From Acidobacteriota bacterium (GTDB lineage Bacteria > Acidobacteriota > Polarisedimenticolia > J045), in assembly GCA_003696075.1 (NCBI GenBank), contig RFHH01000121.1:1-44971 (forward strand): a stretch of DNA of 44,971 nt, given 5' to 3'. Positions 34,677-35,344 of the stretch are shown here, piece by piece. Each line of letters begins with the position of its first letter. The stretch's first letter is position 1. Both the position numbers and the translations under genes were made by a program. A model generated the notes under the pieces. That model did not search any database. It saw nothing but the letters and a program-made list of their open reading frames with translations, and was not told where the DNA came from.

Positions 34677-34806
34677 CGGCCACCTAGGCTAACCCGGATG
34701 CCCGGCCTCGCGCCGAGGAGGGGAGAAGGGGTGCGGCCGAACGCCGCCGGCGAAGGTCGCGCGGCCCGGATCGCCCGAAAAATGGCAAAAAAAGCCCGTT
34801 TCCGGG

Positions 34807-34835
34807 TTGATCCGTTTTGTTTTCGGTGCTACCTA
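34807..34835 (+). promoter_or_regulatory. Weak candidate promoter of the histone-fold gene
   Basis: TTGATC (34807-34812) is followed after 17 bases by TACCTA (34830-34835), preceded by TGC as in extended -10 elements. The -35 matches four of six; the -10 match is poor. The whole stretch 34777-34836 is strikingly richer in A and T than the surroundings, as promoters in such genomes often are. Confidence 0.3.
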
Positions 34836-34852: not shown

Positions 34853-34885
34853 GAAACGGCCGTTTCGAGGGTAAACGGGGCGTTT
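34853..34885. promoter_or_regulatory. Palindrome pair upstream of the histone-fold gene
   Basis: A perfect 14-base palindrome, GAAACGGCCGTTTC (34853-34866), is followed by a second inverted repeat with the same half-site, AAACG-GGG-CGTTT (34873-34885). Both end before the ribosome site at 34897. They could be an operator or, if transcribed, small hairpins in the leader. The related string CCCGTTTCCGGG lies at about 34797-34807. Confidence 0.45.
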
Positions 34886-34915
34886 CGGGTCCCGGTGAGG
34901 AGGAAAGCAAAGCCG

Positions 34916-35182
34916 ATGGCCAGAAAAGCGAAGAAGAAGACCAGCCGGTCTGCCAGCCGTTCGAAGAAGACCTCCCGCTCCCGCGCGAAGAAGAGCGCGG
35001 AGATGCTCATGGTGGCGAGCAAGGTCAAGCAGGCGCTGCGGGAGAACAACGTCAACGTCGCGTCCGACGCGGTGGAGTCGCTGAACAACGTGGTCCACTG
35101 GTACATCCAGCAGGCCGCCGCCCGGGCGTTGGCCAACGGGCGGAAGACGGTCCGGGGCCACGACTTCCTGGTCGGCAACTGA
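34916..35182 (+). CDS. Histone-fold DNA-binding protein with basic N-terminal tail
   Basis: 88 residues. The tail (1-28) has 13 Lys/Arg plus many Ser and contains KKTSRS twice (7-12 and 17-22). The rest fits one histone fold. Alpha-1 is VASKVKQALRE, loop 1 is NNVNVA, and the long alpha-2 is SDAVESLNNVVHWYIQQAAA. Loop 2 is RKTV, followed by a short alpha-3. R76-K77-T78 and D83 reproduce the R-K-T and the Arg-to-Asp spacing of seven seen in archaeal histones (RKTIKAED in HMfB-like proteins). Bdellovibrio-type bacterial histones also have such a core and a short end. It probably compacts or marks DNA. The ATG at 34916 has GAGGAGG 12 bases upstream. An earlier in-frame start would add 33 residues running through the palindromes and is less likely. 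Confidence 0.85.
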   Translation: MARKAKKKTSRSASRSKKTSRSRAKKSAEMLMVASKVKQALRENNVNVASDAVESLNNVVHWYIQQAAARALANGRKTVRGHDFLVGN

Positions 35183-35195
35183 GCGAGCACACCGG

Positions 35196-35227
35196 CGTGG
35201 GGCGGTCCGCGGAGCGGCCGCCCCACG
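35196..35227 (+). terminator. Hairpin after the histone-fold gene
   Basis: A ten-base perfect stem (CGTGGGGCGG / CCGCCCCACG, 12-base loop) starts 13 bases after the stop codon. No T run follows, so efficiency as an intrinsic terminator is uncertain. Its position suggests the histone-fold gene is transcribed alone. Confidence 0.45.
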
Positions 35228-35344
35228 GCGTGCGCCGGGCTGCCTTCCCCGGCCGCGGCCCGGAATGACCGTGGATGCGCCCGGCTGCGTCCTCCCGCGC
35301 GCCGGACGCGGGGCGGGCCGGTGGCGCGACCCGGGGGCGCATCC

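Follow-up and report, generated by a model that had tools for sequence, protein, structure and literature searches.

The open reading frame at positions 34916-35182 on the forward strand of the window (the whole 44,971-nucleotide stretch of DNA analyzed here) encodes a genuine bacterial histone, as judged by sequence and profile comparisons and by the predicted fold. The product, MARKAKKKTSRSASRSKKTSRSRAKKSAEMLMVASKVKQALRENNVNVASDAVESLNNVVHWYIQQAAARALANGRKTVRGHDFLVGN, can with good confidence be read as a face-to-face (FtF) histone that would form tetramers and wrap roughly 60 bp of DNA, both the assembly and the wrapping being proposed by analogy with HLp, a histone from Leptospira perolatii. 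A first-pass annotation of this DNA had described the product as a bacterial protein with a histone fold and a Lys/Arg/Ser tail, a description borne out by sequence, profile, and predicted fold. Proteins of this kind are already known; the present one extends the FtF histones into the Acidobacteriota.

Fold and Family Assignment

When a profile of 25 relatives was compared with solved histones, as the first-pass annotation had proposed, histones were indeed matched, with HLp the best (E = 6.5e-19), followed by HBb from Bdellovibrio bacteriovorus (E = 5e-12), the archaeal FtF histone HTkC (E = 6e-11), and HMfA (E = 0.06). With the single sequence as the phmmer query against solved structures, the values for HLp (9QT0, E = 2e-5) and HBb (8CMP, E = 3e-5) were close. 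Neither the single-sequence nor the profile match can be put down to chance. Matches to gp41 in the PDB search were dropped; no stretch passed alone, and their source was repeated helices.

The AlphaFold2 model of the single chain contains three helices (residues 34-42, 50-73, and 81-84), with core pLDDT values above 90 and a tail of low confidence, and thus has the three-helix histone fold for which a structure prediction had been suggested. Alpha-3 amounts to one turn in the model, in agreement with the short alpha-3 read from the sequence; this is a known state in HLp and HBb. The top Foldseek match was DNA-bound HLp (9QT1; rmsd 0.7 Å over 56 columns, target TM 0.94), which preceded HBb and HTkC. 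The kinship to archaeal histones proposed earlier holds at the level of the histone family, but the closest protein is the bacterial FtF histone HLp, and HMfA was matched only at E = 0.06. Scores against the archaeal nucleosomal histone models fell short of their cut-offs (PF00808, 15.9 bits versus 21.4; NF043032 from NCBIfam, 19.9 versus 50). Assignment to that class was rejected, and annotation with those models would overlook the histone. A DUF1931 pseudodimer histone, which would carry two histone folds per chain, was also rejected, given that the 88 residues comprise a single fold.

The diagnostic residues within the histone fold are the R70/N74 tetramer pair and the R76-D83 clamp. The R76-K77-T78 stretch with D83 seven residues after the arginine is present as first described, and R76, T78, and D83 (RxTxxxxD, the RD clamp of loop 2) are invariant in 25 aligned relatives. 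N74, R76, and D83 are found in all 28 family sequences and R70 in 27 of the 28. Alpha-1 basic residues K36 and K38 are present and conserved among the aligned relatives, and the loop-2 position of K77 (RKT) is occupied by Lys or Arg throughout the family sequences listed. From the residue roles established for HLp (PMC12701072), K36, K38, R42, K77, and T78 are the expected DNA contacts. The Asn-Asn pair of loop 1 that had drawn attention, N44-N45, is present but specific to the window's genome; the conserved residue is N47.

What distinguishes bacterial FtF histones from the bacterial dimers is an Arg and an Asn, four residues apart, where two dimers meet; in the FtF profile, this conserved pair is R48 and N52, and the conserved basic residues of alpha-1 are K16 and its neighbors (PMC11390915). 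The tetramer interface of HLp is formed by R49, N53, and R55 (PMC12701072), which align without gaps with R70, N74, and R76. Given that R70 and N74 are both present, the protein groups with the FtF histones and not with the bacterial dimers, and membership of the HBb type, which has no such pair, was rejected. It is thus unlikely that the protein is a “bacterial dimer” histone like HBb, which would stay dimeric and bend or coat DNA, with the tail adding affinity. HBb is the second-best known match in the searches and has the RKTV loop in common with the window's histone (RTTV in HLp); however, it carries Ser and Asp at the positions of R70 and N74, a pair almost invariant in the window's family, and both profile and structure scores favor HLp. 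A core tree that included HLp and HBb was left out of the classification because it rests on 60 sites, most of its forks are open, and both references sit on very long branches, so that the attachment of HLp and HBb is not settled by it.

Gene Locus and Flanking Elements

The histone gene stands alone, as had been noted, between a divergent TPR membrane protein gene on its left and a MoCF/CinA-like gene after it. This order, which continues with a second TPR gene, is mostly kept in the family. At one locus (L058, genome G008), the MoCF/CinA-like neighbor is absent and the histone adjoins the second TPR gene. Table 1 lists the features of the locus.

Table 1. Features of the histone gene and its flanks (window coordinates)
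Feature	Position	Strand	Basis
Histone gene, FtF type, 88 aa	34916..35182	+	Sequence searches, alignment, structure match
N-terminal tail, residues 1-28	34916..34999	+	Low model confidence, pLDDT about 55-69
Histone fold, residues 29-88	35000..35179	+	Model and alignment with HLp
A-tract, UP-element-like, upstream of the -35-like hexamer	34787..34793	+	Position kept at 7 of the 8 loci of the family
Conserved element resembling an extended -10 promoter: TTGATC, 17 nt, TACCTA with TG ahead of it	34807..34835	+	Found at 6 of the 8 loci of the family, changed at the remaining 2
14-bp palindrome GAAACGGCCGTTTC in the 5' leader	34853..34866	+	Similar hairpin in the nearest relative (L027) alone
Shine-Dalgarno AGGAGG, 12 nt upstream of the ATG	34898..34903	+	Same sequence and similar spacing in L027
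GC-rich terminator-like hairpin without T run, just 3' of stop	35197..35228	+	-38.2 kcal/mol, z -3.0

The family consensus upstream of the gene comprises an A-tract, TTGAT, about 15 nt, and TGCTACC(A/T)A, and the pattern has a single match in the window's genome, at the histone gene. The promoter-like element with its A-tract (34787-34835) is located at the same place in L027, L031, L034, L035, L036, and L037. It was not scored by a generic sigma-70 scan. It could indicate a lineage-specific strong promoter. The palindromic upstream DNA reported in the first-pass annotation was found, but as a hairpin it is recognizable only in the nearest relative; since nothing comparable is seen beyond that genome, its interpretation as a conserved operator was rejected. 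The strong hairpin reported beside the gene was also recovered, and similar GC-rich hairpins occur 3' of the histone gene in relatives.

Distribution and Other Nucleoid Proteins

The host is an acidobacterium from the class of Ca. Polarisedimenticola. The histone type is present in 12 of 41 genomes of this class, with one copy each, and a more divergent type is present in 2. Across the phylum, matches were obtained in 17 of 396 genomes, three of which lie outside the class. No further PF00808 or DUF1931 (PF09123) histone was found in the window's genome. A single scan for viral relatives, based on just one weak pattern, gave no match and is uninformative. A near relative with 57% identity (L015) is located in a MAG labeled Zetaproteobacteria, through either horizontal transfer or an error in binning.

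A second group of histones, divergent in sequence, was also observed (L023, L024, L025, and L026, and genomes G017 and G018 in the host class). These proteins end in RRTLRPQDL or similar, have an alpha-1 helix three residues shorter, and have lost the alpha-1 lysines; they may bind DNA differently. At the four Planctomycetota-type loci of the group, the tails are 25-39 residues long with repeated KKA/KKT units.

A count of HU and histone genes, proposed at the outset, gave four HU/IHF-family proteins and one histone in the window's genome; a reading with the histone in place of HU does not apply here. The fourth HU/IHF-family protein (L007) is divergent, with a low score (57 bits), and is possibly specialized. 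In one relative (genome G009, locus L065), the TPR and MoCF genes are adjacent and lack an intervening histone gene, and the rest of that genome yielded no histone either; this locus is a natural empty site, arising from loss or predating gain. Given the four HU/IHF-family proteins of the host and the lack of a histone at the same locus in G009, the histone is probably not the host's sole or essential packaging protein. Both observations would also suit a protein that retains the histone fold but has given up broad DNA packing, a task for which HU/IHF proteins are available, and that has a local regulatory role. Such a role is very unlikely, however, because the positions through which HLp contacts DNA in alpha-1 and loop 2 are basic or conserved here, and because the tail adds +13.

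The N-terminal Tail

The tail (residues 1-28) contains 8 Lys, 5 Arg, 7 Ser, and 2 Thr but neither Asp nor Glu, giving a net charge of +13, and the remaining 60 residues carry +2. The motif KKTSRS occurs twice, as originally observed, at residues 7-12 and 17-22. When the tail residues were shuffled, a repeat six residues long arose in ∼1% of cases. The DNA encoding the two copies differs at 4 of 18 positions, all synonymous, and GC3 amounts to 0.86 for the tail, compared with 1.0 for the core.

The tail had been considered unusual. By contrast, Schwab et al. 2024 (PMC11390915) describe tails as a frequent feature of bacterial FtF histones, for the most part positively charged and without sequence conservation. 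Each of the 12 class members compared carries an in-frame, Lys-rich tail 20-34 residues long, and 11 of these tails lack acidic residues. Myxococcota relatives are almost tailless. The tail of the nearest relative is MAKRTKKKAGKRRAKTKARSKKAPSF, and among the relatives compared, the Ser/Arg-rich repeat was seen only in the window's genome; the Ser/Arg tail of the window's histone is somewhat unusual. Values of pN/pS were 0.7-1.2 for the tail, the alignment of which is uncertain, versus 0.2-0.6 for the core, and the core value of 0.21 against L027 indicates purifying selection on the core. Judging from these sequences, the tail remains basic and almost acid-free despite large sequence drift. No SET-domain protein was found in the window's genome. 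One Hist_deacetyl-family protein is present, but the family also occurs in 9 of 14 control genomes, including Bacillus subtilis, and is therefore uninformative on tail modification.

That the tail is not made, with translation starting at M30 or M32 to yield a bare histone fold, is highly improbable: both are in-frame ATGs, with GGAG 6 nt before that of M32, the start of HLp was likewise ambiguous, and the tail sequence is poorly conserved, yet AGGAGG precedes the first ATG in both the window and L027, the tails of all 12 class members are read in frame from the start without stops, and their basic, almost acid-free character persists through large sequence change.

Proposed Mechanism and Significance

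In the mechanism proposed for the tetrameric FtF histone, two chains would pair via the long alpha-2 helix to give a handshake dimer, and two dimers would join at both ends via R70, N74, and R76 to give a ring-shaped tetramer, the assembly by which FtF histones are structurally defined. DNA would wrap the positive rim of this ring, by analogy with the HLp tetramers, for which wrapping of ∼60 bp has been measured (PMC12701072), and would be contacted by A34-S35-K36, K38, R42, and T78, and additionally by K77. The 28-residue tail would be disordered, contributing +13 per chain and +52 per tetramer. It would most likely bind the backbone of wrapped or neighboring DNA, outside the core, adding compaction and bridging that depend on charge rather than sequence. 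The histone would act as one among several nucleoid proteins, alongside HU/IHF. A more speculative proposal, to which we give little weight, is that an Acidobacteriota lineage combines tetramer-forming histones bearing long Lys/Arg/Ser tails with a full HU/IHF set, and that the tail, especially the Ser/Arg-rich one described here, is a modifiable or charge-driven element for condensing chromatin, with an evolutionary origin separate from that of eukaryotic histone tails.

Histones are rare in bacteria, with a frequency of 1.86% of genomes (PMC10627809), and few of them have been studied so far. The present group adds the Acidobacteriota, a phylum unnamed in the main text of the histone papers cited, joins the tetramer residues of FtF histones with the loop lysine (RKT) known from nucleosomal ones, and has retained a basic tail in which the sequence drifts and the charge stays. 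No text combining “Acidobacteriota” with “histone fold” came up in a literature search that left aside the main survey's supplementary tables, and absence from the literature is not thereby established. The group offers a simple system for asking how a histone tail functions where the eukaryotic machinery is absent and how a nucleoid is divided between histones and HU/IHF.

Comparison with Known Histones

The closest known system is HLp (9QT0/9QT1/9QT2; PMC12701072), with which the window's histone shares a gap-free 57-residue core (22 of 57 residues identical), the RD clamp, the R/N tetramer pair, the alpha-1 A-S-K and K38 contacts, and the one-turn alpha-3. The tail is very short in HLp, in contrast to the long Lys/Arg/Ser tail here; loop 2 reads RTT in HLp and RKT here, and a loop-1 Met in HLp corresponds to N47. 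Residues S52, T56, and T61 of HLp are replaced by Ala, Lys, and His, so the interface is not identical to that of HLp. L. perolatii and L. interrogans are reported to have no HU (PMC12701072), whereas the window's host retains HU/IHF.

B. bacteriovorus HBb (Bd0055; 8FVX, 8CMP, 9EZZ) resembles the window's histone in its fold, short alpha-2 and alpha-3, RKTV loop, and alpha-1 Ser-Lys motif, but is a dimer without the R/N pair or a long tail, and its loop 1 is longer by one residue. The archaeal nucleosomal histones HMfA/B share the loop-2 RKTxxxxD but are matched weakly in sequence (E about 0.06), have longer alpha-2 and alpha-3 helices and a single dimer-dimer interface, and are usually tailless.

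With the tailed bacterial FtF histones (PMC11390915), the likeness extends to the FtF core motifs and to a positive, non-conserved N-terminal tail. The main text of that survey gives Spirochaetota, Planctomycetota, Bdellovibrionota, and Myxococcota as the main FtF phyla and does not name the Acidobacteriota, the host phylum here. According to Schwab et al. (PMC11390915), FtF histones have no strongly conserved loop-2 lysine; by contrast, the window's family keeps the Lys (or Arg) of RKT.
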